Under the pieces are notes generated by a model that ran no database searches, was not told where the DNA came from, and worked only from the letters and a program-made list of their open reading frames with translations. The position numbers were made by a program, and so were the translations under genes. DNA of 64,000 nucleotides from Streptococcus sp. Marseille-Q6470 (lineage in GTDB: Bacteria > Bacillota > Bacilli > Lactobacillales > Streptococcaceae). Where the stretch lies: assembly GCF_946902905.1 (NCBI RefSeq), contig NZ_OX336385.1, positions 1,651,396 through 1,715,395 of the forward strand, given 5' to 3'. Below, piece after piece: positions 25,414 to 39,318 of this stretch (the stretch's first letter is position 1; every line of letters begins with the position of its first letter).

Positions 25414-28404
25414 ATGCAGGTAAAACCAGAACTGGAAATAGAAAAACAACTGATAAACCAGCTGGTAACTGGTGAAAGCCAATGGACTTATAGAGAAGAC
25501 CTAAAAACAGAAGAACAACTATGGGACAATTTCTTTGAGAAACTAGCCCAAAACAACGTTGCTCTGCTAGCAGACCATCCCTTGACTGAGCAGGAAAAAC
25601 GCCAAATTCAGAACCAACTCAACTTTGTCAGCTACTATGATGCTGCCAAGTGGTTGGTCGGAGAAAATGGCATTGCCAAAGTCGAGGTTCAAAGAGAAGA
25701 TGCGAGCCTAGGCACCATCCGTTTGTCAGTCATTTGGCGTGACAATATCGCAGCAGGAAAGTCTAGCTACGAAGTTGTTAATCAAGTCCAACGAGAAAAA
25801 GTAAATCCACTGGACCAAGACCGTAGACTGGATGTTACTCTTCTCATTAACGGCTTACCCATGATTCAAATCGAGCTTAAGAGTTCCCAAGCAGCATTTA
25901 TCGATGCTTTTCATCAGATAAAAAAATATGACCGTGAAGGGAAATTCCGTGGCATCTACTCTAGCTTGCAGATGTTTGTTGTCACGAACAAAGTAGATAC
26001 TCGCTATATCGCTGCAGCTCGTGAAAATAAACTTAACAAGCAATTTCTAACCAAGTGGGTGGATAAGGACAATCATCCTGTGACAAATTTGACTAGCTTT
26101 GCTCACGAAGTCCTTTCTATCCCTCGTGCCCACCAGATGGTCATGCAATACTCGGTCATTGATGATAGCAAAAAATCTCTCATCCTCTTGCGCCCCTACC
26201 AGATCCATGCTATCGAAGCGGTGCAGGAAGCCTCTCGCCAGCAAGCATCAGGTTATGTTTGGCATACAACAGGTTCAGGGAAGACCCTGACTTCTTATAA
26301 GGTGGCGAGGAACCTCCTTCAAATTCCTTCTATCCAAAAGACGATTTTTGTAGTTGACCGCAGGGACTTGGACCAACAGACCACATCATCCTTCCTCTCT
26401 TATGCGACCAATGATGTCATTGATATCGATGAGACGGACAATACACATGATTTGGTCAAGCGACTAGGTAGTAATGATAAGCGTGTCGTGGTGACAACTA
26501 TCCAGAAAATCACTACCATGATGCGCAAGTTTGACCAAGGCCTTTACCAACGAGATGCGGACAAAATCGAGGGACTCCGAGTGGCCTTTGTCGTGGATGA
26601 ATGCCACCGTGCCGTGACCCCACAAACACAAAAAGACATTAAAGCCTTTTTCCCTCAGTCACTCTGGTATGGTTTTACAGGAACCCCCATCTTTAAGGAA
26701 AATAAACGCCAGCAAGTCGGCGACCTAGCTCAAACCACCCAGCAACAATATGGAGACCGCCTCCATGAGTATACAGTCAAGGAAGCCATCCATGACGGAG
26801 CTGTCCTAGGCTTTAAGGTGGACTATCGCAATACCCTCATCACGGATAAATCTGAAGATGACATACCAGATACCGTCTACGAAAATGAGGAACACATGCT
26901 GGAAGTCTTGGATGCCATTATCAATAAATCGCGCCAACAACTAGGCTTCCAAAAAGGAGTCGGCAATACCTACAATGCCATCCTGACTGTCAAGTCCATC
27001 CCTCAAGCCCAAGCCTACTATGACCTTCTCAAAAGAGTCAAGGATGGACAGACACGGGTCAAGGTATCTGAGAGGGTCAAGATGGTCCTCCCAGACTTTC
27101 CAAAGGCGACCATCACCTACTCTGTCACAGAAAATGAAGAAGACTCAAGAGCCAACCAAGACCACATGAAACAGGTCTTAGAGGACTATAATCAAGAGTT
27201 TGATACTCACTTTACAATGGCGGATCTTCGTGGCTTTAATACCGATGTCAATAATCGCCTTGCCCGTAAGCAAGACAAGTATCTCTATCGCAATGAGCAG
27301 TTGGACTTGGTTATCGTGGTCAATCGTCTCTTAACAGGATTTGATGCACCTTGTCTATCGACTCTCTTTATCGACAGAAAGCCCATGCAACCGCAGGACT
27401 TGATTCAGGCTTTTAGCCGTACCAATCGTATCTTTGATTCTAGTAAGACTTATGGCCATATCATAACATTCCAAAAGCCTCTAGCCTTTAAGGAAGCAGT
27501 CGATAATGCCCTCAAGCTCTACTCAAATGGTGGTGAAAATGATGTCCTAGCCCCTAGCTGGGAAGAGGAAAAGAGAAACTTTTTGAGAAGTTGTAGCGCC
27601 TTCCAAAATCTCATCACCGATGATCCCGAAGAAGGACTCCAACTGGAACAAATCTCTACGCCACAGTTGAGAAAAATTGCCAAGGCCTATCAAGGATTTG
27701 ATAAATATCTAGCTTCTATCCGAGTGTATAAGGAGTATGATGAGGACGAAATTTACGCCCAAACGGGACTCAGTGCAGAAGAGTTAGAAGTTTATCTTGG
27801 TTTTTATCAAAATATCCTAGCAGAGCTGAAAAGCCGTTCTGAAGATGATAACGACGATGGCGAACCACTGGATATACACTACGAACTGGAGTCTATCCAA
27901 GTCGATGAGATTAACTATGCCTATATACTGACCTTGATCCAAAGCCTGATCGAGCAAGAGCAAAGTCAGGAAAAGAGTCTCAGTGCACAGGACAGAGAAG
28001 CAGTGGATACCTATATCCAAAGTCTGGAGAAGACCAATCCAAATCTTGCCCAGATCATCTCAGAGCTTTGGCAAGAAGTACAGGCAAATCCTGACCGCTA
28101 CAGAGGTCAATCCATTGCCAATATCCTTGATCAGATGATTGAAGCAGTCATCCAGCAGCATATCCAAGACTTTAGCAAGACCTGGTATGTGGGTGAAGAT
28201 GAACTCCGCTACTATATCAATCACTACCGCAAGGGAGCTAAAAAACAACTAGGAGAAAGTCAACTGATCAAGAGTCAGCGCTACAAGGACTATAAAGTTG
28301 AGGTGTCAGATGCCCTCAACCCACTCCTCTATAAAAAACAAATCAAAGAAGCCTATACCCAACTAATCGAAGAGGTGATTGAGCCGTTGAGAGTTGGGAG
28401 GTAA
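25414..28404 (+). CDS. hsdR: Type I restriction enzyme, endonuclease/translocase subunit
   Basis: 996 residues, a normal HsdR. The PD-(D/E)xK nuclease is at D140 ... E154-L-K156 in [20 protein letters not shown]2 motor: Walker A HTTGSGKT (284-291), DECH box at 395-398, GFTGTPIF, and QAFSRTNRI for motif VI. A helical C-terminal domain mediates assembly. It cleaves unmodified DNA after translocation when bound to HsdM2-HsdS. It is separated from hsdM by four AT-rich genes, whereas hsdR and hsdM themselves have the base composition of the chromosome. It should be functional: no stop, no motif loss. Confidence 0.95.
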
Positions 28405-28461
28405 GGGAAACAATATACTGAATTTTGTTGTTTAAAAATTTTATATGTAAACTAAGATAAA

Positions 28462-28478
28462 TTCAGTTAAAAACTGAA
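28462..28478. promoter_or_regulatory. 7-3-7 inverted repeat before the RloC-like gene
   Basis: TTCAGTT-AAA-AACTGAA, 13 bases before the next start. A second arrangement (ACTGAATT at 28418-28425 with AATTCAGT at 28460-28467) overlaps it, giving two alternative pairings. Candidate operator or RNA switch; no binding protein known. TGAGGA at 28480-28485 is the ribosome-binding site. Confidence 0.45.
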
Positions 28479-28491
28479 ATGAGGATAATTT

Positions 28492-30693
28492 ATGGTTACT
28501 ACTATTGTAGATTTGGAACAAATTAAATTTGAAGATTCTGATACTCCACTTTTTGAAGGTGAAGAATTAGAACTGTCTCCAAAAAATTTTATTTTTGCAA
28601 GAAACGGATCAGGCAAATCAACATTAAGTAAAGCAATTTATAATCAAAAACAAACAGAATTCGACGTATATGTTTTTAATGGTTTTGACTCTTTGATAGG
28701 AGAAAATGAGAATCTAGATGCTTTTTCATTAGCAGTTAATGCAAGTGAAAAAGAGTCAGAAATAAAAGAGTTAGAAGATAGAATTACAAAATCAGAGCAA
28801 GAGTTATCTTTAGTTAAAAAAATGCTTGATGCAAAAAGTAGTGAGGATGAAGAACCGACTTTGTATGATGAGTGTTCAGAGAAAGTAAGATTGTTTAATG
28901 AACAAGATAGGAAAATACAAAGTTTTTATAAGAATTCCGCCCGAACTATTTCACTAAAAACGGGCCATATTATTGTGGAAAATCCGAAATCTTATAATAA
29001 AAATATTTTTGAATCAGAAATTACAAATGCTTGTCGTTTAGGGGAAACAGATATAAATCTTTATAAGAAGATATTGCAGAGCGTTCCTAAAGAAATTACT
29101 CCCATTAGCGAGAATGAAATTAATTTTGAAAAATATTTGAATGCTGTCAATGAAATTATTTCGAGTAAAGTTGTTGAACGAGTATTCATTGGTAGATTAG
29201 ACAACCAAAGAAAAATTAATTTCGCTAAAGAAGGATTAGAAATCCATAAAGAAGAAAATATATGCTCGTTTTGTGGGAATGAACTTTCTGATGAAGTGTT
29301 GATGGAGTTGGAGAGATATTTTTCAGCAGATGAGGTGAAGAAACTTCAAAATCGAATTAAAGTTGGTAAAGAAAAAATTGCTAACTTGCTTAATGAGATT
29401 AAGGAAAATGTCAAGATTAGTACAGATGATTTTTTTCCGGATCTTAAAGATGAGGTTGAAAAAGAGAGTGAGAAAGTGAATGAGTCTCTTACAGCACAGA
29501 AATCCTATTTAGAAATATTACTTAAAACATTGGAACAGAAAGAAAGTAATCTCTTTGTGGAGAGTGAAGAGTTAGAGTTACCTATACCAAATAATGTGAA
29601 TTATGGTGAGCTAAACAGACTAATTGAAGTAAACAATCAAAATGTTTTAGATATTAAAAACAAACAGAAAGAGGCAAGAGATGCAATTCGATATCATGAA
29701 ATAAAATTGTTACTTGAGAATTTCCAATATGATGTTGAACTAGAAAGACTAACTGTTCTTAAGAGAGAAAAAGAGGAAAAAGAATTAGTTTATAGTCACA
29801 AAAAAAATGAAAAGGAAGAATTGGAACAAAATTTAGCTGAATATCGAATTCAGGTTGACAAATTAAAACCAAAAGCAGAAAAACAAGCTATTGAGAGAAT
29901 AAATAAAAAACTTCGGTTAAAAGTTTCTTGGGAATTAGATCATGTAGACAATCAAAACCTTGGTTATTACAGAATAAAAGAAGGAAATCAATATAGAAGT
30001 GTAAAACAATTATCAACGGGTGAAAAAAATGTCATTGCATTTTTATATTTTATTGAGCGTTTGGAGGAAGTTAAAGAAGGACAAAAGAAGAATAAAATAA
30101 TAGTATTTGACGATCCAATGAGTTCGAATGATGATAAAATGCAATACTTGATTATTTGGGAACTACAAAAACTTTATCAGAATAAAGATAGAGATAAATT
30201 CGATTCAAACCGAGATATCATGGTAATTCTAACTCATAATGTTCATTTTTATTTGAATGTTCAACCACATGGTTATTTTAAAGATGAAAAAAATAGAACT
30301 AAATATGATAAGAATAATTTTTACCGAATTGATCATCATGCATTTATTAAAATTTCAACTGAAAAGGAGGATTTTAAAACAAGTTATGAGGCTCTTTGGG
30401 TAGAACTGAAGGATTTGTATGAATGTGGTCATGAACTCTCAATGTTGAATACGATGAGAAGGATAATAGAAACTTTTATGAAGTTTAATGCATTGAAACA
30501 GGATATTTTTTATCAAGACAATGAGCAGTATTTGAAATTGTTTAATGTCAATTCTCATGGAATAGATGATCCATCTGCAGTTCAATATACAGAATCTATT
30601 GATGAAATGAGAGATCTTTTTTATCAGATTTTTAAGGATAATCATTATGAAGAACATTTTAAATACTATTGGAAATTTGATACTGGCTGTTAA
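28492..30693 (+). CDS. rloC: RloC-like ATPase / anticodon nuclease candidate with zinc hook
   Basis: 733 residues, AAA_13-type ABC ATPase split by a coiled coil. Walker-A-like ARNGSGKST at 36-44 (Ala in place of the first Gly), ABC-signature-like QLSTGEKN, Walker B IIVFDDPMSSND and H-loop ILTHNVHF. Between the ATPase halves are long charged helices with C258-S-F-C261-G, a Rad50-like CxxC zinc hook. The C-terminus has R656/R657-I-I-E660 and H689 in NVNSHG; spacing R-x3-E and ~33 to His resembles the Arg-Glu-His triad of PrrC/RloC tRNA nucleases. RloC proteins are known next to type I restriction genes and cut the tRNA wobble position when restriction fails. Activity is inferred. Strongly AT-rich beside hsdR. 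Confidence 0.72.
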   Translation: MVTTIVDLEQIKFEDSDTPLFEGEELELSPKNFIFARNGSGKSTLSKAIYNQKQTEFDVYVFNGFDSLIGENENLDAFSLAVNASEKESEIKELEDRITKSEQELSLVKKMLDAKSSEDEEPTLYDECSEKVRLFNEQDRKIQSFYKNSARTISLKTGHIIVENPKSYNKNIFESEITNACRLGETDINLYKKILQSVPKEITPISENEINFEKYLNAVNEIISSKVVERVFIGRLDNQRKINFAKEGLEIHKEENICSFCGNELSDEVLMELERYFSADEVKKLQNRIKVGKEKIANLLNEIKENVKISTDDFFPDLKDEVEKESEKVNESLTAQKSYLEILLKTLEQKESNLFVESEELELPIPNNVNYGELNRLIEVNNQNVLDIKNKQKEARDAIRYHEIKLLLENFQYDVELERLTVLKREKEEKELVYSHKKNEKEELEQNLAEYRIQVDKLKPKAEKQAIERINKKLRLKVSWELDHVDNQNLGYYRIKEGNQYRSVKQLSTGEKNVIAFLYFIERLEEVKEGQKKNKIIVFDDPMSSNDDKMQYLIIWELQKLYQNKDRDKFDSNRDIMVILTHNVHFYLNVQPHGYFKDEKNRTKYDKNNFYRIDHHAFIKISTEKEDFKTSYEALWVELKDLYECGHELSMLNTMRRIIETFMKFNALKQDIFYQDNEQYLKLFNVNSHGIDDPSAVQYTESIDEMRDLFYQIFKDNHYEEHFKYYWKFDTGC

Positions 30694-30712
30694 ATAAAGT
30701 GTGGGAGTATGG

Positions 30713-31942
30713 ATGAAATTAAAAAAAAATGATAATGTGCCTGAAATTAGGTTCGATTCTTTTAAAGAAGAATGGGATAAAAAGAGATTTAAAGATTTTA
30801 CAAAATTGTCTCAAGGTCTACAAATGGCAATTTCAAGTAGATTTTTAGAAGATGGAGAACATAGATATTTTTATATTACAAATGAATTTTTAAATCCAAA
30901 TTCTACAAAGAAATATTATATCGAATCTCCATCTGAGAATGTTATTTGCACTGTAGATGATATTTTAATGACCAGAACTGGAAATACAGGAAAAGTGATT
31001 ACAAATATTTCTGGTGCATTTCATAACAATTTTTTTAAGGTTGATTATGATAAATATGAAACCTCTAAAATGTTTTTATATTATCTTTTAACATCAAATG
31101 ATATTCAAAAAGAAATCATAATTAGAGCAGGAAACTCAACTATTCCTGATTTAAATCATAGCGATTTTTACTCTATAAAAACCTCTGTTCCTGCTCTAGC
31201 TGAACAATCCGCTATCGGATCCCTTTTTCGTACCCTTGACGACCTTTTGGCGAGTTACAAGGACAATCTCGCCAACTACCAATCTCTCAAGGTGACCATG
31301 CTCTCTAAGATGTTTCCCAAAGCTGGACAGAGAGTTCCTGAGATTCGTTTAGATGGATTTGAAGGTGAGTGGGAAGTGCTACAATTATCTGATATTTGTC
31401 AAAAAGTAACAGAAAAAAACAAAGATAATAATTTTAATGAAACTTTCACAAATTCAGCGGAATTCGGAATTATTAGTCAAAGAGATTTTTTTGAAAAAGA
31501 TATATCTAATGAAAAAAGTTTGAATACATATTATGTTGTAAGAAACAATGATTTCGTTTATAATCCAAGGATTTCAAACTATGCTCCAGTGGGACCAGTT
31601 AAACGAAATAAACTAGGAAGAACTGGTGTTATGTCACCTTTGTATTTTGTTTTTAGAATTACAAACTCAAATATTGATTTAAATTTCTTAGAAACCTTTT
31701 TCAATACTAATACTTGGCACAAATTTATGAAATTAAATGGCGATTCAGGTGCTCGGGCTGATAGATTTGCTATAAAGGATTCTACTTTTCTCACAATGCC
31801 TATTGCGTTTCCATCCCTCCCTGAACAACAAGCCATTGGCGCCTATTTCTCAAACCTCGATAACCTCATCAACTCTCACCAAGAAAAAATTTCTCAGCTA
31901 GAAACTTTGAAAAAGAAACTCTTGCAGGATATGTTTATTTAA
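30713..31942 (+). CDS. hsdS: Type I restriction-modification specificity subunit
   Basis: 409 residues from ATG 30713 (GGGAG upstream); a GTG at 30701 would add four residues. Two target-recognition domains, about 10-155 and 215-360, each followed by a conserved helical spacer, beginning with the paired motifs VPEIRF and VPEIRL. TRD1 and TRD2 set the two halves of the bipartite target; the site cannot be read. The spacer DNA (about 31183-31390 and 31805-31940) looks like host sequence in base composition, whereas both TRDs are very AT-rich, a mosaic left by recombination within the conserved spacers. No second hsdS or recombinase is nearby, so no inversion switching is suggested. Confidence 0.92.
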   Translation: MKLKKNDNVPEIRFDSFKEEWDKKRFKDFTKLSQGLQMAISSRFLEDGEHRYFYITNEFLNPNSTKKYYIESPSENVICTVDDILMTRTGNTGKVITNISGAFHNNFFKVDYDKYETSKMFLYYLLTSNDIQKEIIIRAGNSTIPDLNHSDFYSIKTSVPALAEQSAIGSLFRTLDDLLASYKDNLANYQSLKVTMLSKMFPKAGQRVPEIRLDGFEGEWEVLQLSDICQKVTEKNKDNNFNETFTNSAEFGIISQRDFFEKDISNEKSLNTYYVVRNNDFVYNPRISNYAPVGPVKRNKLGRTGVMSPLYFVFRITNSNIDLNFLETFFNTNTWHKFMKLNGDSGARADRFAIKDSTFLTMPIAFPSLPEQQAIGAYFSNLDNLINSHQEKISQLETLKKKLLQDMFI

Positions 31943-31958
31943 ATGAAAGGGACTAAAT

Positions 31959-33155
31959 ATGCCAGACACAACTTTTAAACGTGAAAAGAAAACAGATAGA
32001 CCAGTTATAGCACTTTGCTATGATTTTGATAAAACTCTATCTCCAGATGATATGCAAGCTCAAGGATATATTCAAACAGTACAACCAGAAGGAAGTGATG
32101 TAATTGGTGATTTCTGGAAGGAGTCAAATAATCGTGCCGCAGCAAACAATATGGATAAAAACCTTGCTTATATGTATACAATGAAGAAAAAAGCACGTGG
32201 GCAAATTGTTTTTACAAAAGAAAAACTTGCGGACTATGGCTCTAAAGTAGCATTATTCGAGGGAGTTAAGGATTGGTTTAAGCGCATTAGAGATTATGGA
32301 GCAGAAAGAGATATTATTATCGAGCATTATATTATTTCTTCTGGTTTGAAAGAGATGATAGAAGGAACATCAATTGCGAATGAGTTTAAAGAACTATACG
32401 CAACATCTTTCTATTTTGATGAAGACGGGGTGGCTGTTTGGCCTGCTCAAGTAGTTAATTATACTAACAAGACACAGTTCCTTTTCCGTATCTCAAAGGG
32501 AGTACTCGATGTAAATGATGATGCTGTTAATGATTCTTTTGCACCAGATGAAATCAGAGTTCCTTTTCGGAATATGGTTTATCTAGGGGACAGCGATACG
32601 GATATTCCTTGTATGAAATTGGTAAATTCTCAAGGCGGATATTCTATAGGTGTTTTTAATCCAGATGAAAAGGATAAAGTGAAGGCGAAAAATAAAGTCT
32701 ATAAAATGATGAGGGATAATCGTATTTCTTATTTTGCCCCTGCAGATTATTCGGAAGGTAGCGAGCTTGATGAACTAGTGAAATTGATCATTGATAAAAC
32801 TGTGTACAACGAAAAATTGTACAAGAAAAAGTATATTAATCAGAAGGAAGCTATCGAACAAGAAAAACCAAGAGAAGAACAGGAGAAGATAGATTTAATC
32901 AACTCTTTAGAAAGTAGTGCTAGTTTCAAAAGTACTCATGCTATTATCGAGAAATTATCAAAATATACTAGTTGGAAACCAGAAGAAATAGAAGATCTCT
33001 TAGAAATTGCAGTGGAAAATACACAGGTATTACATATTTTGAATGACCAAGATATTAAAGAGTTTTACCAGTATCTAATTGAAAAACTTAGTAGTAATAC
33101 TAAAGACTCAATTAGAAATAAAGTGGAAAAAATTCAAGAAAAGATTGAATCATAA
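31959..33155 (+). CDS. HAD-superfamily phosphatase-like protein of the restriction island
   Basis: 398 residues. Motif I is D22-F-D24-K-T-L, the HAD nucleophile and acid/base pair; the C-terminal acidic motif is GD211-S-D213-T-D215. Between them is a cap region (~40-130), and the last ~120 residues are a charged helical domain without known match. It starts 16 bases after hsdS with AAAGGGA upstream. HAD proteins of this length occur within restriction loci, but I know no defined job. Phosphatase activity on a nucleotide or nucleic-acid end is an inference; T4 Pnkp's 3'-phosphatase is a HAD enzyme. AT-rich like its neighbours. Confidence 0.7.
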   Translation: MPDTTFKREKKTDRPVIALCYDFDKTLSPDDMQAQGYIQTVQPEGSDVIGDFWKESNNRAAANNMDKNLAYMYTMKKKARGQIVFTKEKLADYGSKVALFEGVKDWFKRIRDYGAERDIIIEHYIISSGLKEMIEGTSIANEFKELYATSFYFDEDGVAVWPAQVVNYTNKTQFLFRISKGVLDVNDDAVNDSFAPDEIRVPFRNMVYLGDSDTDIPCMKLVNSQGGYSIGVFNPDEKDKVKAKNKVYKMMRDNRISYFAPADYSEGSELDELVKLIIDKTVYNEKLYKKKYINQKEAIEQEKPREEQEKIDLINSLESSASFKSTHAIIEKLSKYTSWKPEEIEDLLEIAVENTQVLHILNDQDIKEFYQYLIEKLSSNTKDSIRNKVEKIQEKIES

Positions 33156-33183
33156 ATTGTAGACGAGAAGATTTAGGTGAGAT

Positions 33184-34980
33184 ATGGCGGAGAAAAATTT
33201 TATAGAACTAGATAAAATTGATACCTCAACTGCGGCGCAAAATTTTGCAAATTTATTAAACGAGAATAAGACGTATTTTTTGAATGGTACTTGGGGATCA
33301 GGTAAGTCTAATTTTCTAAAACAAGTTGACAATTTAAAACCTGTAAACAATAAAAAAAAAGTTAAACTAGTAACCATTGATTTTTGGAGATTAAATGACA
33401 GTCGTTCAACATTAGAGACAGTTTTTGCTAATTTACATCCATTTGTTTATTGGAGCTTAAGATTAATTATAATTCTATGCATTGCATTATCAATCCTAAT
33501 GACTAATGTAGTTGATTTGGGTCTAAGTGTTTTTGTACCTACTTGGGTTATATTGGGTGCAGGAGTGGTTGCTTTAATAGTCGCAATCCATCAGTTTTTG
33601 AAAATAAAGTCAGACGGAATTTATAGTCGGTTATTGACGATAAATTGCCCTTCATTTAAGAACAAAGTCTTAGTTGTTGATGACTTTGATAGGATGACTC
33701 TGGCTCAACAGGAAGCAAGTTATAAAGTTTTTAGTTTATTAAATGGCAAACTTCCGATTATATTTGTTGGAGATATAGAACTTTTACATAAAAATGATAA
33801 TAATTACCTTTCAAAAATTATAGACAGAAGATTTGATATTCCTTATGTTTTACATCCTATGAAAATATGGGGAGATTATTTTGAACAATTAGAGGAGAGA
33901 TTTAAAATAAAGCTTTCTGATGAATTCAAGAGGGTCTTCATAAGGGACGTTAAAAATTTAAGAGACAGAGAACGTTTCAATGATTATGTTAATTTGGAAT
34001 TAATCGGTCGTGATAAAAAGGAATATGTCCAAATTGAGCAACAGCTGGTTGTTCTTTATCTCTATCTTTACTATCAAGAAGCATATAAGTCTCTAAAGAA
34101 TGGTAGGGAAGGAATTGAAATAAATTCAGATAAGATGTGGCTAATCCAAGAACTGCAAACCATTTTATTTGAACGAAATGATTTGTATCCTGTTTGTTAT
34201 CACTCAAACTGTGAAGCGTATTTCATTAATGAAATACCATCTAATAGAAAAATTGATGAATTAATTTTGATTTTTAATAACAGGAAACAACTATCTACGG
34301 AAATCTTAAATAATCAGCAAGATTTCTTTGATTATATAAAAAATTTTGAGAATTTGACTGAGAATCAGCAAGAATTATTATTCCAACAAACATTAGAATT
34401 TTCTAAACTTGGAAAGAATAATATGCTGATGGATAGCATTATTCAAAAGAAAGTAAAAAAAGAGATTCCTGACTACAATCCGTCTTTTATTAGTACAAAA
34501 ATGATTAAAGATGTGGCAGACTTTTTAAGATATAAATTAAGTGAAGAGGATTTATCTGAAATTTTTTATTTTATTATTAAGCACAAAATTTTTCAATATT
34601 ATGACTTTAGAAATTCACAGATAGGAGAAGAATTGTATTCTAAAATTGAGCGTTTTAATAGAAAAGCACAAATATTATTGATTTATATCTATAGTCATAA
34701 TATACAAGAGCGTTTTTCTGAATGGGACAATGAACTATTGCAGAAAATAGAAAACCTTGATACGGAAGATTTTCTCGATTTTTTGCTACAGATTGGATGT
34801 ATTGTTAATAGTCAAGATTATGGTGATGAATTTCTTACAGCAAATAAAACATATACTACAAATTTTAATAATTTAGCTGGTGACACCTATAAAACAAGAT
34901 CAGTTGAGATTTTTAAAAGTTTTTATAATAGGTTGATGAAACTTAATAACGAGGGATATGTAATAAAAGACCCAGAGTAA
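33184..34980 (+). CDS. KAP-family P-loop NTPase with inserted transmembrane pair
   Basis: 598 residues. Walker A GTWGSGKS at 35-42, then two membrane helices at ~88-108 and ~117-138, then Walker B VLVVDDFDR at 162-170: insertion of helices between the A and B motifs is the hallmark of KAP NTPases, placing the ATPase domain on the inner membrane face. GDIELL downstream may be sensor 1. The long C-terminal half is helical, charged and unrecognised. KAP proteins recur in phage-defence loci (for example with retrons or as PifA in phage exclusion). Here it lies 28 bases after the HAD gene, so the pair probably acts together. Very AT-rich. Confidence 0.78.
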   Translation: MAEKNFIELDKIDTSTAAQNFANLLNENKTYFLNGTWGSGKSNFLKQVDNLKPVNNKKKVKLVTIDFWRLNDSRSTLETVFANLHPFVYWSLRLIIILCIALSILMTNVVDLGLSVFVPTWVILGAGVVALIVAIHQFLKIKSDGIYSRLLTINCPSFKNKVLVVDDFDRMTLAQQEASYKVFSLLNGKLPIIFVGDIELLHKNDNNYLSKIIDRRFDIPYVLHPMKIWGDYFEQLEERFKIKLSDEFKRVFIRDVKNLRDRERFNDYVNLELIGRDKKEYVQIEQQLVVLYLYLYYQEAYKSLKNGREGIEINSDKMWLIQELQTILFERNDLYPVCYHSNCEAYFINEIPSNRKIDELILIFNNRKQLSTEILNNQQDFFDYIKNFENLTENQQELLFQQTLEFSKLGKNNMLMDSIIQKKVKKEIPDYNPSFISTKMIKDVADFLRYKLSEEDLSEIFYFIIKHKIFQYYDFRNSQIGEELYSKIERFNRKAQILLIYIYSHNIQERFSEWDNELLQKIENLDTEDFLDFLLQIGCIVNSQDYGDEFLTANKTYTTNFNNLAGDTYKTRSVEIFKSFYNRLMKLNNEGYVIKDPE

Positions 34981-35286
34981 AATCTTAAAAGGAAGCTACT
35001 ATAGTATTTGTTAGTCAGAATCTTAAAGATATTAAGAAGTTTTTGGTGGTCATTTGTCTGGTCGACTTGACTCATTTTATGACTGGAACAGATTTTAGGA
35101 GCACTTATAGGATTTCTTCCACAATCTAGAATTTAAGATTATTTAATCTGTGTAAAAGTATTGTTTATGAACTTACAGTATCTTCTATTCAGTTAGTCTT
35201 GATTCAAACGGTAGAAAGAGAAGTGATTGGTTATTCCTAAGCAATCACTTTTTGAAGAATATTTGCAAAACTTAGAAAGAAACATT
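34981..35286. other. 306-base gap between KAP and hsdM
   Basis: No intact gene. Short open stretches occur on the plus strand (for example about 18 codons ending at 35096, translating GGHLSGRLDSFYDWNRF), which could be decayed coding sequence, but no family is recognisable. The likely hsdM promoter is only weak (TTGTTT 35161-35166, TCTATT 35184-35189). A TTG-initiated frame from 35227 adds 20 residues to HsdM but has no supporting homology that I can recall. The sharp change back to host-like composition falls at its right end. Confidence 0.5.
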
Positions 35287-36888
35287 ATGGAAACAACACA
35301 AACTTCCCAGTCGCTCTATCAGGCCCTGTGGAACTCAGCGGATGTTCTCCGCTCTAAGATGGATGCCAACGACTACAAGTCCTATCTTTTGGGCATGGTC
35401 TTTTACAAGTATCTATCGGACAAGATGCTCTTTTTCGTGGCTGAGACTATGGAAGAGGGGACAGATAGTCTTGAGGATGCTCTTGAGGTCTATCGCAATT
35501 ACTACGAGGATGCAGATACTCATGAGGATTTGGTCTCTGTCATGAACGATGAGCTCAACTATATCATCAAACCAGACTTGACCTTTACGGCTCTAGTAGC
35601 TCGTGTCAATGAGGGGACTTTTCAGCTGGAAGATCTAGCTCAAGGTTTTCGTGATATCGAGCAGAGTGACGACCTCTATGAAAATCTCTTTGAAGATATC
35701 GACCTCTACTCTAAAAAGCTAGGGGCTACTCCGCAAAAGCAAAACCAAACGGTAGCAGCAGTCATGAAAGAGTTGGCTGTGCTAGACGTGGCTGGTCATG
35801 CGGGCGATATGCTGGGGGATGCCTATGAGTATCTGATCGGTCAGTTTGCGACTGACTCGGGTAAGAAAGCTGGTGAGTTTTATACACCTCAGCCTGTTGC
35901 CAAACTCATGACTCAGATTGCCTTTTTAGGTCGTGAAGACCAGGAAGGTTTTACCATCTATGATGCGACTATGGGGTCGGGCTCTCTCTTGCTAAATGCC
36001 AAGAAATATTCTCATAAACCGCAGACAGTCGTCTACTTTGGTCAGGAGCTCAATACTTCGACCTATAACCTAGCTCGGATGAACATGATCCTACACGGCG
36101 TTCCTGTTGAGAATCAATTCCTACACAATGCCGATACCTTGGATGAAGACTGGCCAACTCAAGAGCCGACCAACTTTGACGGTGTTCTCATGAACCCGCC
36201 ATACTCTGCCAAGTGGTCAGCAAGTTCAGGCTTTATGGCTGACCCTCGTTTTTCTCCTTTTGGGAAACTGGCACCCCAGTCCAAGGCTGACTTTGCTTTT
36301 CTCCTACATGGATATTACCACCTCAAGCAGGATAATGGAGTAATGGCTATCGTTCTTCCCCACGGTGTTCTTTTCCGTGGGAATGCGGAAGGAACCATTC
36401 GCAAGGCCTTGTTAGAAGAAGGAGCTATTGATACGGTTATCGGTCTACCAGCCAATATCTTCTTTAATACTAGCATTCCAACTACGGTTATCATTCTCAA
36501 GAAGAACCGTACCAACCGTGATGTCTACTTTATCGATGCCTCTAAGGAGTTTGATAAGGGGAAAAATCAGAATATCATGACGGATGCCCATATCGAGAAG
36601 ATTCTGGAAGCCTATAAGTCACGTGAGGAGATTGATAAGTTTGCTCATCTAGCAAGCTATGAAGAAATCGTCGAAAATGACTACAACCTCAATATCCCTC
36701 GCTATGTAGACACCTTTGAGGAAGAAGAAGTAGAGCCACTGACAGACATCGTCAGCAAGATTAATGAGACCAATAAAGCAATCGAAAGCCAAACAGCTTC
36801 CCTGCTTGAAATGCTCGGTCAACTCCACGGAACCACACCAGAAGCCGATGCTGAGCTCAAAGAGTTTTTGAAAAACTTTAAAGGGTGA
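35287..36888 (+). CDS. hsdM: Type I restriction-modification DNA methyltransferase subunit
   Basis: 533 residues from ATG 35287 (METTQTSQ...), preferred over TTG 35227. N-terminal HsdM_N helical domain, then an N6-adenine methyltransferase: FYTP region, motif I DATMGSGSLLL (D226), motif IV N303-P-P-Y306. A C-terminal helical tail binds HsdS. It methylates the target adenine and, with HsdS, forms the protective enzyme. The ribosome-binding site (AGAAAG) is weak. Intact, so host DNA should be modified, as needed with an intact hsdR. A terminator follows. Confidence 0.94.
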   Translation: METTQTSQSLYQALWNSADVLRSKMDANDYKSYLLGMVFYKYLSDKMLFFVAETMEEGTDSLEDALEVYRNYYEDADTHEDLVSVMNDELNYIIKPDLTFTALVARVNEGTFQLEDLAQGFRDIEQSDDLYENLFEDIDLYSKKLGATPQKQNQTVAAVMKELAVLDVAGHAGDMLGDAYEYLIGQFATDSGKKAGEFYTPQPVAKLMTQIAFLGREDQEGFTIYDATMGSGSLLLNAKKYSHKPQTVVYFGQELNTSTYNLARMNMILHGVPVENQFLHNADTLDEDWPTQEPTNFDGVLMNPPYSAKWSASSGFMADPRFSPFGKLAPQSKADFAFLLHGYYHLKQDNGVMAIVLPHGVLFRGNAEGTIRKALLEEGAIDTVIGLPANIFFNTSIPTTVIILKKNRTNRDVYFIDASKEFDKGKNQNIMTDAHIEKILEAYKSREEIDKFAHLASYEEIVENDYNLNIPRYVDTFEEEEVEPLTDIVSKINETNKAIESQTASLLEMLGQLHGTTPEADAELKEFLKNFKG

Positions 36889-36925
36889 TGGGGAATAGTT
36901 AGATACGTAAATCCTTTTTAAATCC

Positions 36926-36955
36926 CAGCCAAATTAACTTTTGGCTGGCTTTTAT
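36926..36955 (+). terminator. Terminator of hsdM
   Basis: CAGCCAAA and TTTGGCTG arms with a short loop, followed by GCTTTTATTTTTT. Confidence 0.8.
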
Positions 36956-37017: not shown

Positions 37018-37356
37018 ATGAAGCTTATCTATACAAACAAAACTGTTAAAAAGCAGTGCACAGAGCTGAGACAGGCGAAAAAGGATTTTTCGGATAAGGT
37101 TGCTGTAAAGTTGCATCTCTTGATCAACTTTTTGGAAGCAGCAGATTCTTTGGCCAGTGTGACAGCTTTTCCTAAATATCACTTTCACCAACTTAAGGGA
37201 AAGAGACAGGGACAGTTTGCTTTAGATATAGATGGTCGAAAGAGTTCCTATCGTTTGATTGTGGGTTTTCGTGAAGAGGACCTAGAAAAGGTATTTTCCA
37301 GTCCTATTGAAATTGAAATCCTAAAAATAGAGGAGGTCAGCAATCACTATGAGTAA
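37018..37356 (+). CDS. HigB/RelE-like toxin
   Basis: 112 residues, basic, with the small RelE/HigB fold signs: a charged N-terminal helix, then KGKRQGQFALDIDGRKSSYRLIV, where the beta-sheet Arg/Lys residues sit, and a C-terminal strand. It probably cuts mRNA on the ribosome when its antitoxin is lost. GAAAGGGA lies before the ATG. The stop overlaps the next start by 8 bases and toxin precedes antitoxin, the HigBA order. No active-site loss can be judged without alignment. Confidence 0.75.
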   Translation: MKLIYTNKTVKKQCTELRQAKKDFSDKVAVKLHLLINFLEAADSLASVTAFPKYHFHQLKGKRQGQFALDIDGRKSSYRLIVGFREEDLEKVFSSPIEIEILKIEEVSNHYE

Positions 37357-38434
37357 TAAAATTGTTGAATACAAAGACCTGATTGCTTTTCATCCAGGTC
37401 AGTATGTTGAAGAGTTGATTGAAGATTATAACGTAACGCAGAAAGAATTTGCGGAGCGTTTGGGAGTTTCAGCAAAGACTGTCAGCAAGCTCGTCAATGC
37501 GGAGGAGTCTATTAGTAAAGAAACGGCACATAAGTTAGCCAAGCTAAGTGGAGTTTCCATGCAAACTTGGCTCAATCTTCAAAACGCTTACGATGTAAAA
37601 GTTGCAGAAATTGTAGAACAAAAAGAACTAGAAGAAGGTAGCGAGAAAGAAATCTGCGAGATGATTGATTTCAAGTATTTTAAGGAAAAAGGCTACGTTC
37701 CAGACAAACGCTATAGCTTGAAGGAAAAGATTATCGAACTTCGCAAAATTCTAGGCGTGGCAAGTTTAGAAAATCTTACATCTTTTAACCATCTAGTGAG
37801 TTATCGGAATACGCGTGAATTTACAACTAAAAGTATAGTCAACTCCAATATCATGCTGGAGTTGGCATCTAAAAAAGCACGTGATACAACAACTACTAAG
37901 CTCAATCGCAAAAAGTTAGAGAAAAGCTTGCCTGCCTTGAGAGAGTTGACCAGACAGGATCCAGAAGCCTTTCCTCAACGCTTGTATGATATCTTGTTAG
38001 ACTGTGGTGTTGTCCTAGTCGGTCTGCCTGCTTTGCCAAATGCTAATCTGAATGGAGCGACTAAAAAATTCAGTAATGGCAGTGCCTTGCTTTTACTCAC
38101 GGATCGAAATAAAGTATCAGATATTTTCTGGTTCTCACTCTTTCATGAGATAGGACATATTCTGGAGAATGATTTTTCATCTGATGAAGGAAACAGCGAA
38201 ACCTATCTTCGTTCTGAGGAACAGGCAGATCAGTTTGCAAAAGATTTCTTGATTAGACCAGAAGACTATCAAGCTTTTGTTGAAAAAGGAAACTTTGATA
38301 AGAAGGATATCATACGTTTTGCTGAGGAGATAGATATTCATCCTAGCGTCGTTTTAGGCAGATTACAAAATGAGGGTATTCTCGGTTTTGATCGTTTCCG
38401 AGAACTAAAAGAAAATTATTACTTTGTTTCTTGA
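37349..38434 (+). CDS. HigA-like antitoxin fused to an ImmA/IrrE-type metallopeptidase domain
   Basis: 361 residues, over three times a normal HigA. Residues ~15-75 are an XRE-type helix-turn-helix (NVTQKEFAERLGVSAKTVSKLV). After a linker, the C-terminal half contains FHEIGHIL with H266-E267-x2-H270, the zinc-protease motif of ImmA/IrrE (COG2856), and EEQADQFAKDFL, typical of the same domain and able to give the third ligand. The protease could cut a repressor or the antitoxin itself to release the toxin upon stress; that is inference. Start overlaps the toxin stop. The palindrome at 36978 is its likely operator. Confidence 0.82.
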   Translation: MSNKIVEYKDLIAFHPGQYVEELIEDYNVTQKEFAERLGVSAKTVSKLVNAEESISKETAHKLAKLSGVSMQTWLNLQNAYDVKVAEIVEQKELEEGSEKEICEMIDFKYFKEKGYVPDKRYSLKEKIIELRKILGVASLENLTSFNHLVSYRNTREFTTKSIVNSNIMLELASKKARDTTTTKLNRKKLEKSLPALRELTRQDPEAFPQRLYDILLDCGVVLVGLPALPNANLNGATKKFSNGSALLLLTDRNKVSDIFWFSLFHEIGHILENDFSSDEGNSETYLRSEEQADQFAKDFLIRPEDYQAFVEKGNFDKKDIIRFAEEIDIHPSVVLGRLQNEGILGFDRFRELKENYYFVS

Positions 38435-38564: not shown

Positions 38565-38969
38565 ATGGAAAATAACAACCAACGTGCCCTTTGTCAGCAA
38601 CTCTGGGCGGAAAATAAATACCTTGTTTTGAGCCATTCCAGCAATATTTACAAGGACATTCGTCAGTATCTCAAGCAAGAAGTGGTGGAGCTGAGTCAGG
38701 TTCAAGAGATGATTGACCGTGCCTGCCAGATTCCAGAGCACAGGGGTCAGGTTTGCAACTCCTTCCAGCATATTTGGGGCTATTTTAAAAAGCAAGCCAG
38801 CCTTGATGAACGCAAAGACTATATGCTTTTGCTGGACCGCTATCGCTTTGGTCAAGCTTCCAAGGAAGACTTGATTGCTAGGACTAGAGATTTGCTTGAA
38901 CGATACCCAAATGCTTATCTGCAACATTCTACCTTGCTGAAAGGAGACTCCCATGAGACTTTGGCATGA
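38565..38969 (+). CDS. YbgA-family (DUF1722) protein
   Basis: 134 residues, all-helical, matching the YbgA domain: LWAENKYLVLSHS, HIWGYFKKQ, RYRFGQ and YLQHSTLL. This domain is found fused to or near photolyase and other DNA-repair genes; its biochemical role is not settled. It overlaps by 17 bases with a pyrimidine-dimer glycosylase gene, so a DNA-repair role in UV damage is likely. AAGGAGA precedes the ATG at 38565. The 130 bases upstream hold no clear promoter. Confidence 0.8.
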   Translation: MENNNQRALCQQLWAENKYLVLSHSSNIYKDIRQYLKQEVVELSQVQEMIDRACQIPEHRGQVCNSFQHIWGYFKKQASLDERKDYMLLLDRYRFGQASKEDLIARTRDLLERYPNAYLQHSTLLKGDSHETLA

Positions 38970-39318
38970 GGATTTGATTTCACGACTTCCCCGTCCTCAG
39001 CTCTTGGGGCAGCATCGAGAGTGCTGTGCCCTTCGTGGCAATGGATGGGGCAGAAAACATGCGACGGTTGACTATGTCTTTACCCACTCGCCCTATCGTC
39101 TCTATACCTATCATTGCTTCATCATGGAGGAGATGGCTAGCCGTGGCTACAAGGTCAGTCCGGAGTGGCTGGATAAGAACTACCGTGGCAAGACCTGCCC
39201 TCCTTATCAAGACTTAGCAGAGGAAAAGCTGAAAAGTCCAATCTATAGTGAGCATGACTATGCCTACTATGAGGAGTGTCTGGACAATCTCCGTGAGAAA
39301 GGCATAGAGCTGGAGTAA
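38953..39318 (+). CDS. Pyrimidine dimer DNA glycosylase (endonuclease V, DenV family)
   Basis: 121 residues. The N-terminus MRLWHEDLISRLPRPQLLGQ runs into HRECCALRGNGWG; R22-E23 align without gaps with the catalytic Arg22-Glu23 of T4 endonuclease V. T4 uses the amino group of Thr2, exposed by Met removal; here residue 2 is Arg, which normally blocks Met removal, so the nucleophile may differ. Members excise cyclobutane pyrimidine dimers. Start overlaps the YbgA gene end, with AAGGAGA in front. Together they form a small repair operon at the edge of the restriction island. Confidence 0.78.
   Translation: MRLWHEDLISRLPRPQLLGQHRECCALRGNGWGRKHATVDYVFTHSPYRLYTYHCFIMEEMASRGYKVSPEWLDKNYRGKTCPPYQDLAEEKLKSPIYSEHDYAYYEECLDNLREKGIELE

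Follow-up and report, generated by a model that had tools for sequence, protein, structure and literature searches.

Type I restriction-modification (RM) operons that house further genes are known from several bacteria. In Campylobacter jejuni, the hsd loci carry open reading frames (ORFs) between hsdR and hsdS, termed rlo (R-linked ORF), and between hsdS and hsdM, termed mlo (Miller et al. 2005, via PMC5183652; papers given here by PMC number are cited from excerpts). DarTG2 lies between hsdS and hsdR in enteropathogenic Escherichia coli, at a site called a potential recombination hotspot (PMC12255303), TgvAB resides inside the type I RM of Vibrio cholerae VPI-2 (PMC11411939, which refers to Payne et al. 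2024 for defences embedded in this way) and prrC is embedded in ecoprrI (PMC12707154). Here we describe a locus of Streptococcus sp. Marseille-Q6470, located in a stretch of 64,000 nucleotides (the window) that is the end of a genome consisting of one contig of 1.72 Mb. The ORF list and domain profiles place six genes on one strand, hsdR, an RloC-like gene, hsdS, a HAD phosphatase-like gene, a KAP NTPase gene and hsdM, in agreement with an earlier note made from the letters of this DNA. Comparison with related sequences makes it quite probable that this streptococcal type IC-like RM operon harbours a hotspot with two slots for defence cassettes, of which the locus described here represents one haplotype. 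The feature is real, recurrent and well bounded, and its kind, defence genes nested in type I RM, is already known; the novelty lies in the scale on which, and the rules by which, it occurs in streptococci, and in a HAD-KAP(-PDC-S61) module as a candidate system.

The 5' anchor of the locus is hsdR (25414..28404; all features given here are on the plus strand) and the 3' anchor is hsdM (35287..36888). Pfam, NCBIfam and PADLOC profiles find HSDR_N, SWI2_SNF2 and EcoR124_C in hsdR, hsdM matches TIGR00497 (E=1.5e-108), and hsdS (30701..31942), which opens with GTG and has an in-frame ATG at 30713, matches PF01420 (E=2e-21) in two stretches; PF04313, PF18766, PF22679 and PF12008 were also found, and TIGR00348 and TIGR00497 scored above cut-off. 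These matches point to a type IC-like (EcoR124 family) RM system whose restriction subunit would combine an N-terminal nuclease, a translocase and an EcoR124-type C-terminus, together with HsdM and a two-domain specificity subunit, HsdS. The start of hsdM is most likely the ATG at 35287, which gives 533 amino acids (aa), the commonest length in relatives, rather than the upstream in-frame TTG at 35227. The earlier note had seen host-like hsdR and hsdM around an AT-rich insert, and the composition in 1-kb bins bears this out: GC is 42-47% in hsdR, 27-35% over 28001-35000 and 42-43% in hsdM, in a genome stretch of about 42%. Its gaps of 16 and 28 bp are likewise there, yet the range of 16-28 bp does not hold for the whole insert, as RloC and hsdS are separated by 7 bp; the gap from hsdR to RloC is 87 bp. 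We found no integrase or transposase among the 10 proteins scanned in and around the window locus, and no repeat pair flanking the insert, the longest direct repeat being 33 nt at 73% identity.

To place the locus among its relatives, 147 genomes of the genus were searched for HAD, KAP, hsdR and RloC and 284 genomes for hsdM. Matches to hsdR and hsdM were frequent (109/147 and 230/284 genomes, each in several families), and those to HAD (9/147), RloC (10/147) and KAP (13/147) were few. Eighty regions were fetched from the better hsdR and hsdM matches, making 81 with the window, and the 72 in which both genes are present were used. Since some matches at 62-72% identity were left out, the sample represents this RM family and not all streptococcal type I loci. 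In the nine excluded regions (L057, L065, L157, L165, L166, L167, L169, L171 and L179) hsdR or hsdM was not in view; L165 and L167 span the full 20 kb and lack hsdR, and the other seven are short. Removal of the near-clonal L051 and L159 left 70 loci for pair tests. Gene families are single-linkage clusters of mechanically called ORFs of at least about 80 aa, with the first possible codon taken as the start, and may include fragments and spurious ORFs.

The order hsdR, slot A, hsdS, slot B, hsdM is kept in 72 of 72 loci, with variable ORFs in both intervals, as in rlo/mlo-type loci. Between hsdR and hsdM lie 1229-13701 bp (median 5716). Of the 347 inner genes, hsdS included, 341 have the same orientation. 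Cargo is present in slot A of 67 and in slot B of 53 of the 70 non-clonal loci, and no kept ORF besides hsdS was found in L071 (1229 bp) and L194 (3716 bp). The 70 loci hold 93 cargo families, 76 in slot A and 19 in slot B, and only two, c5 and c10, are common to both slots. Mean GC is 29.7% in slot A and 33.0% in slot B, as against 44.9% in the last 1.5 kb of hsdR and 47.4% in the first kb of hsdM. We therefore regard the conserved restriction operon as a likely two-slot holder of swappable, mostly defence-type genes, the window presenting one combination. That the genes of the window came together by chance, or by a recent random insertion, could be thought of in view of the contrast between an AT-rich insert and about 42% GC in this genome stretch, but the recurrence of the same order and slots in 72 loci, and the presence at this locus of all nine HAD copies from the 147 genomes, refute this idea, to which we give practically no weight. 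The genes of the insert are foreign-looking, defence-related and recurrently tied to a restriction locus, which supports part of the interpretation given in the earlier note.

The arrangement resembles that of C. jejuni rlo and mlo, with the same two slots between the same hsd genes and variable contents (PMC5183652). Unlike that organism, which belongs to another phylum and has type IAB, IF and IC loci, the streptococci hold distinct gene sets in the two slots, and features that differ from the excerpted C. jejuni account are that slot A is partly linked to the N-terminal domain of HsdS and that the ends of similarity repeat from locus to locus. Like the DarTG2, TgvAB and prrC loci, the streptococcal operon carries second defence systems within hsd (PMC12255303, PMC11411939, PMC12707154); those accounts, as excerpted, describe one slot with one or few cargos, whereas the streptococci have two slots and 93 families in 70 loci. 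In Streptococcus thermophilus, SIR2-HerA is reported to lie between R/M systems in some strains and to be active against phages, and in strain ST55 PDC-S06 and PDC-S61 are about 1.88 kb apart (PMC11514479), which is close to the spacing of about 1.84 kb in the RloC-hsdS-c10-c1 arrangement of L058. The excerpt of that paper does not describe the hsdR-A-hsdS-B-hsdM plan or the HAD-KAP pair. In the literature searched, with subscription papers and bioRxiv mostly outside it, we found no account of a streptococcal two-slot plan, slot-specific gene sets, a HAD-KAP pair or cargo linked to the HsdS N-domain, and nothing that links a HAD phosphatase, anti-phage function and type I restriction.

The borders of the exchangeable parts could be read from hsdS and from DNA comparisons. 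Conservation of HsdS is confined to about residues 166-225 and 376-413, where the commonest residue occurs in 0.74-0.85 of sequences (0.76-0.85 in the tail from aa 376); the rest, including the N-terminus, is variable. In the window these stretches correspond to a centre of 174 bp (31202..31375) and a tail (31796..31942), both probable crossover anchors; the N-terminal recognition domain (about aa 20-155) is at 30758..31165 and the C-terminal one (about aa 228-365) at 31382..31795. An hsdS ORF of 645 aa, in place of the usual approximately 400, was seen in the near-identical L043 and L159, which carry KwaA-like genes. When the DNA of the window was compared with five loci (L035, L036, L046, L058 and L162), similarity ended at 28403, the end of hsdR, in four of them, resuming at 28481 in L036, and continued past the end of hsdR in L058, in which RloC is also directly behind hsdR. 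In L035, L162 and L046, which do not share the N-domain, the 174 bp centre stands as an isolated block of 88-91% identity, while in L036 and L058, which share it, similarity stops at 31373-31375. In all five comparisons it resumes in the hsdS tail, at 31808-31823, and again before hsdM, at 35124-35274. The window is thus a mosaic, in which slot A and the HsdS N-domain resemble L036 (90% DNA identity over 28481-31373) and slot B resembles L035 (87% over 31823-34475). Across the comparisons hsdR, hsdM and both the centre and the tail of hsdS are conserved anchors, between which slot A, both HsdS recognition domains and slot B vary largely independently.

One exception to this independence is the link between slot A and the HsdS N-domain. 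The N-domain of the window is 97% identical to that of L036 and 81% to that of L058 (98% and 83% over aa 23-150), which are the two other loci with RloC directly before hsdS, and falls below 50% with the other 69 loci; its C-domain is below 50% with all other 71. Taking identity of at least 50% as similar, we compared the sharing of the last slot A gene between pairs of the 70 loci using 5000 label shuffles. Pairs with similar N-domains share that gene in 14 of 63 cases, as compared to 40 of 2148 other pairs, and none of the 5000 shuffles reached 14. For pairs with similar C-domains, a comparison that controls internally for general relatedness, the figures are 2 of 50 versus 52 of 2161 (1723 of 5000 shuffles). 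As no well-conserved stretch of hsdS lies 5' of the N-domain, simple hitchhiking explains the link, and the simplest account would be that crossovers fall mostly in the conserved anchors, none of these anchors being situated between slot A and the N-domain, with further turnover of cargo.

Alternatively, slot A cargo and the N-domain could be inherited together because they are functionally coupled, for example if the effector were silenced or triggered via that domain. The 14 sharing pairs do span eight cargo families, and the three loci in which RloC directly precedes hsdS have one N-domain, whereas the two with an intervening gene have other N-domains. Yet 49 of the 63 N-similar pairs differ in their last slot A gene, and two N-domain groups (L040, L046, L047, L056, L158, L160 and L172; L035, L038, L043, L069 and L188) are each found behind five last cargo families. 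We give this coupling little credence and prefer hitchhiking in a two-slot holder. No comparable link was convincing for slot B among the same loci, neither with the C-domain (8/40 versus 162/1338; 523 of 5000 shuffles) nor with the N-domain (6/48 versus 164/1330; 2665 of 5000 shuffles). A tendency of slot A and slot B to travel together (table 13/18/157/1138, Fisher p 4e-5) is not claimed, because the pairs are non-independent and close relatives inflate it.

The cargo is rich in genes of known defence types. The PADLOC scan covered 33 of the 93 families, and 18 of 30 cargo representatives matched (13/20 at E<=0.001 and 5/10 at E<=1e-5), in addition to RloC and HAD. Slot A holds SIR2 with HerA, IetA with IetS, AbiH, an AbiP2-like reverse transcriptase (RT), a Tmn/YobI-like NTPase, GmrSD C-terminal domains, a Schlafen-like protein (c49, by Pfam) and RloC. 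Slot B holds a fused PARIS-like AAA-DUF4435 protein (c2, 12 loci), KwaA-like c14 with c15, which matched nothing (5 loci), a CBASS cyclase with a two-transmembrane effector (2 loci) and a Gp49-like protein with a helix-turn-helix partner (c23-c24, 7 loci), along with KAP (12 of the 72 loci), HAD (12) and c1 (18). PADLOC had no match for three large slot A proteins, L035:13215-15458 (747 aa), L042:11919-14609 (896 aa) and L039:12257-13894 (545 aa); these are found in HAD-bearing loci and are good candidates for new defence genes.

In the window, slot A is occupied by the RloC-like gene (28492..30693), which matches PF13166 (AAA_13, E=3e-85) and the PADLOC candidate PDC-S06 (E=6e-239). Like the anticodon nucleases RloC and PrrC, its product has a predicted ABC ATPase, which is Rad50-like (Walker A ARNGSGKST at 36, signature LSTGEK at 507, Walker B IIVFDDP at 536), a zinc hook (CSFC at aa 258-261; C-x-F-C in 4/4 aligned streptococcal copies) and, in its C-terminal HEPN anticodon-nuclease region, R656-x3-E660 and H689, which are identical in the same four copies. 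By PrrC numbering, we take these R-x3-E and H residues to be the counterparts of those of PrrC. Only 4 of the 10 RloC genes in the 147 genomes are at this locus. In the 72 loci RloC is a slot A passenger in five, and slot B of the other four contains PARIS-like c2, c10-c1, c51-c52-c23-c24 or a split KAP.

The first gene of slot B, HAD (31959..33155), encodes the long form of 398 aa. It matches PF12710 at 28.7 bits (cut-off 27), TIGR01488 at 24.8 bits, which is under the cut-off of 45, and PADLOC candidate PDC-S34 (E=3e-193). Its motifs are intact (D22xD24xT26, S127, K171/K180, G210-D211...D215) and invariant in 36 aligned members. The nine HAD copies of the 147 genomes all lie directly behind hsdS of this locus. 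Among the 12 HAD loci of the 72, five have long forms and seven have short forms (298-304 aa), and an intact c1 follows HAD in ten, the window having a remnant and L042 none. KAP adjoins four of the five long forms and none of the seven short forms (one-sided Fisher p about 0.01). A role of the long C-terminal tail as a KAP partner was considered and rejected; outside the streptococci long forms that have no detected KAP are common, which makes the tail older, and a KAP was found by profile near HAD in 1 of 80 named loci (L076).

HAD is widespread beyond the streptococci: a scan of genome contigs detected at least 569 HAD loci, of which 80 were retained. Type I genes were detected near HAD in 4 of 77 named non-streptococcal loci (L087 Gemmiger, L088 a Clostridia metagenome-assembled genome, L090 Treponema putidum and L100 Lachnospiraceae), and a weak hsdM match makes L130 a possible fifth; this count comes from profiles of the streptococcal family plus PADLOC on selected neighbours and should be taken as a minimum, given such narrow profiles and the shortness of many contigs. 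PADLOC was run on 56 neighbours of long-form loci, 10 of those singly, and the neighbours of short forms were listed only. HAD adjoins hsdR of other type I families at 10-18 bp in Gemmiger, the Clostridia genome and T. putidum, overlaps hsdR by 4 bp on three alphaproteobacterial plasmids (Methylocystis, Rhodobacter and Neotabrizicola) out of nine HAD-matching plasmid records, and in S. macacae (L077) stands behind hsdM of another, more distant type I locus. It is thus probable that HAD reached type I loci on several occasions, beside different hsdR families, yet it is not confined there. Further defence contexts of this HAD family were seen in L079, beside an IetS-like protease, and in L083, beside an RT-associated DUF1848-type protein.

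The second gene of slot B, KAP (33184..34980, 598 aa), matches PF07693 (36.1 bits, cut-off 20; E=6e-9) and has Walker A and B motifs and, by eye, two hydrophobic segments at about aa 88-140. Among 20 copies hand-picked from the 120 matches listed, Walker A is kept in 19, the remaining one (P0100) lacking the N-terminus, and mean pairwise identity is 83-91% before aa 290 and 55-68% after it. Such a pattern, in which the motor is conserved and the C-terminal half variable, would be expected for a sensor under changing phage pressure. PifA, which excludes T7, is presumably a KAP NTPase as well, and the KAP of the window resembles it in its P-loop region and predicted membrane segments; it differs in the C-terminal part. 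PifA of the F plasmid is said to act through membrane depolarisation (PMC8594841). Of the 12 KAP loci among the 72, four have HAD, and in two of the other eight (L070 and L186) KAP is split. In 8 of the 13 KAP genomes of the genus search the gene is in slot B, in G108 it lies about 5 kb from another hsdR family, and in four there is no nearby hsdR among the matches listed. Between KAP and hsdM the window retains a decayed 3' remnant of c1 (35121..35234), revealed by a search of its own genome and corresponding to aa 213-250 with one internal stop. The intact c1, PADLOC candidate PDC-S61 of about 251 aa, is the last gene before hsdM in all 18 loci that bear it; it matches RTasPDDEXK in PADLOC (E=1e-10) and its signature GDGDF...DFK suggests a PD-(D/E)XK type nuclease. 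PDC-S34, PDC-S06 and PDC-S61 are direct profile matches, and as PADLOC candidates carry no function there.

A possible but rather unlikely reading of slot B is that HAD and KAP assist restriction rather than act in defence themselves, HAD by trimming or dephosphorylating DNA ends or by regulating the enzyme and KAP by tethering it to the membrane. The closeness of HAD to hsdR, even to overlap, in several type I families would fit such a role, as would its strong conservation with invariant catalytic residues. However, most named HAD loci have no type I gene detected nearby (with narrow profiles), slot B otherwise holds PARIS-like, KwaA-like and CBASS genes, and KAP homologues of 35-41% identity exist outside restriction loci on the three plasmids examined (L008, L009 and L010, from Enterococcus and Lactococcus), next to recombinase, Y-family polymerase or TIGR04141 genes. 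KAP matches 52 plasmid records altogether, possibly a family of plasmid-borne exclusion genes.

The earlier note had proposed one layered system, in which restriction damage triggers RloC and HAD and KAP are further effectors of the same cascade. The genes do lie on one strand at a spacing of 7-28 bp, and the RloC relative PrrC is silenced by a type IC enzyme and freed by anti-restriction (PMC3874168, PMC12707154), the hsdR of the window being EcoR124-like. The parts nevertheless reassort over the 72 loci: the window is the only one of five RloC loci that has HAD, and HAD and KAP each lack the other in 8 of their 12 loci. According to the excerpt of PMC3874168, other RloCs cut tRNA once their ATPase meets DNA ends, and the Acinetobacter protein, AbaRloC, is neither silenced nor activated via the restriction protein. 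In a 2013 survey, R-M-linked HEPN proteins, including RloC-like ones, are discussed as a multi-pronged defence, RloC itself not being R-M linked in the excerpt (PMC3710099). Cargo also persists where restriction is damaged. Eight of the 72 loci fall under the length cut-offs (900 aa for hsdR, 500 aa for hsdM), that of L049 perhaps by a start-codon effect only. In L045 and L046 hsdR is split by a stop and the cargo genes are still open, hsdM being also short in L046; L165 and L167 have hsdM, hsdS and slot cargo and no hsdR in the 20 kb fetched, and L167 retains c5, a gene of the c72 family (whose scanned member, of 358 aa in L073, is AbiH-like), KwaA-like c14 and c15. This is weak evidence, as the losses may be recent, but it disfavours a cascade that requires restriction cuts. 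In L069, hsdR is in two pieces, most slot genes are open and KAP, at 509 aa, is shorter than usual. We find the layered system quite unlikely, and independent back-ups in one holder the more likely alternative to a single cascade. What does recur is the HAD-KAP pair, in four of the 12 loci of each gene and always as hsdS-HAD-KAP, so that the neighbourhood check suggested with the earlier note did reveal an association; the pair was there taken for a module that could not be named, and while HAD is already a PADLOC candidate, the pair itself is absent from the literature found.

We propose that homologous recombination within the anchors exchanges blocks of the holder, and that the incoming DNA is probably acquired through natural transformation, these streptococci being naturally competent. 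The HsdRMS enzyme would form the first line. RloC, held off by its own Rad50-like ATPase, would upon meeting broken DNA cut tRNA anticodons and lead to abortive infection. KAP, as an NTPase anchored in the membrane, would use its variable C-terminal half to sense an infection signal in a PifA-like manner, and HAD would be an active phosphatase, acting with KAP, the restriction complex or both. The cargos would be independent back-ups on a common locus, and probably a common transcript, and not one cascade.

Several observations weigh against this proposal. The differing cargo of most N-similar pairs and the two N-domain groups behind five families each have been mentioned; the N-domain/cargo pairs are non-independent, the shuffles ignore relatedness and the crossovers are deduced from the ends of similarity. 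The activities of RloC, HAD and KAP are read from motifs and families, and no solved structure was matched by sequence for HAD, KAP, RloC or c1. The match of KAP to the PifA model of PADLOC is weak (E=7e-5, 19.6 bits) and covers 53 residues, 33-85, full-length similarity to that profile not being found. Finally, HAD is mostly away from restriction genes outside the streptococci and may therefore be a general enzyme recruited to the locus. PHROGs had no match for HAD or KAP, and scans of viral contigs for close relatives of the two yielded none.

A terminator-like hairpin 3' of hsdM (36925..36948) is called from a consensus match alone, and in this AT-rich DNA the numbers of terminator-like sites (11 in the stretch versus 6.4 expected, sd 3.0) and promoter-like sites (49 versus 38.9, sd 7.1) are near chance. 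Just 3' of hsdM, at 37018-38434, lie a HigB-like toxin gene and, behind it, a gene for a HigA-like antitoxin with a fused IrrE/M78-type peptidase domain. Among the first 38 complete relatives the pair recurs in five (L044, L045, L046, L048 and L054). Farther downstream (38953-39318) is a gene for a pyrimidine-dimer-glycosylase-type protein (TIGR02328), a relative of which is instead upstream of hsdR in L055-L057.

The analysis turns a four-gene oddity into a general rule for the genus, in which a restriction operon with defined anchors holds swappable, mostly defence-type genes. HAD with KAP, and slot A with the HsdS N-domain, tend to go together, whereas RloC merely shares the locus with HAD-KAP. 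Should the HsdS N-domain and the slot A effector, here RloC, form a co-inherited functional pair, the effector being tuned to its domain or silenced or triggered through it, and slot B a hitherto undescribed membrane-sensor/phosphatase/nuclease system made of KAP, HAD and PDC-S61, for which we see only a slim chance, a domain swap would exchange the protected DNA word together with the back-up weapon that guards it. The link suggests an explanation, open to testing, for how effectors and DNA specificity could change jointly, and the two-slot locus, with 12 of the 33 PADLOC-scanned families lacking a match, may provide a direct route to new defence candidates.

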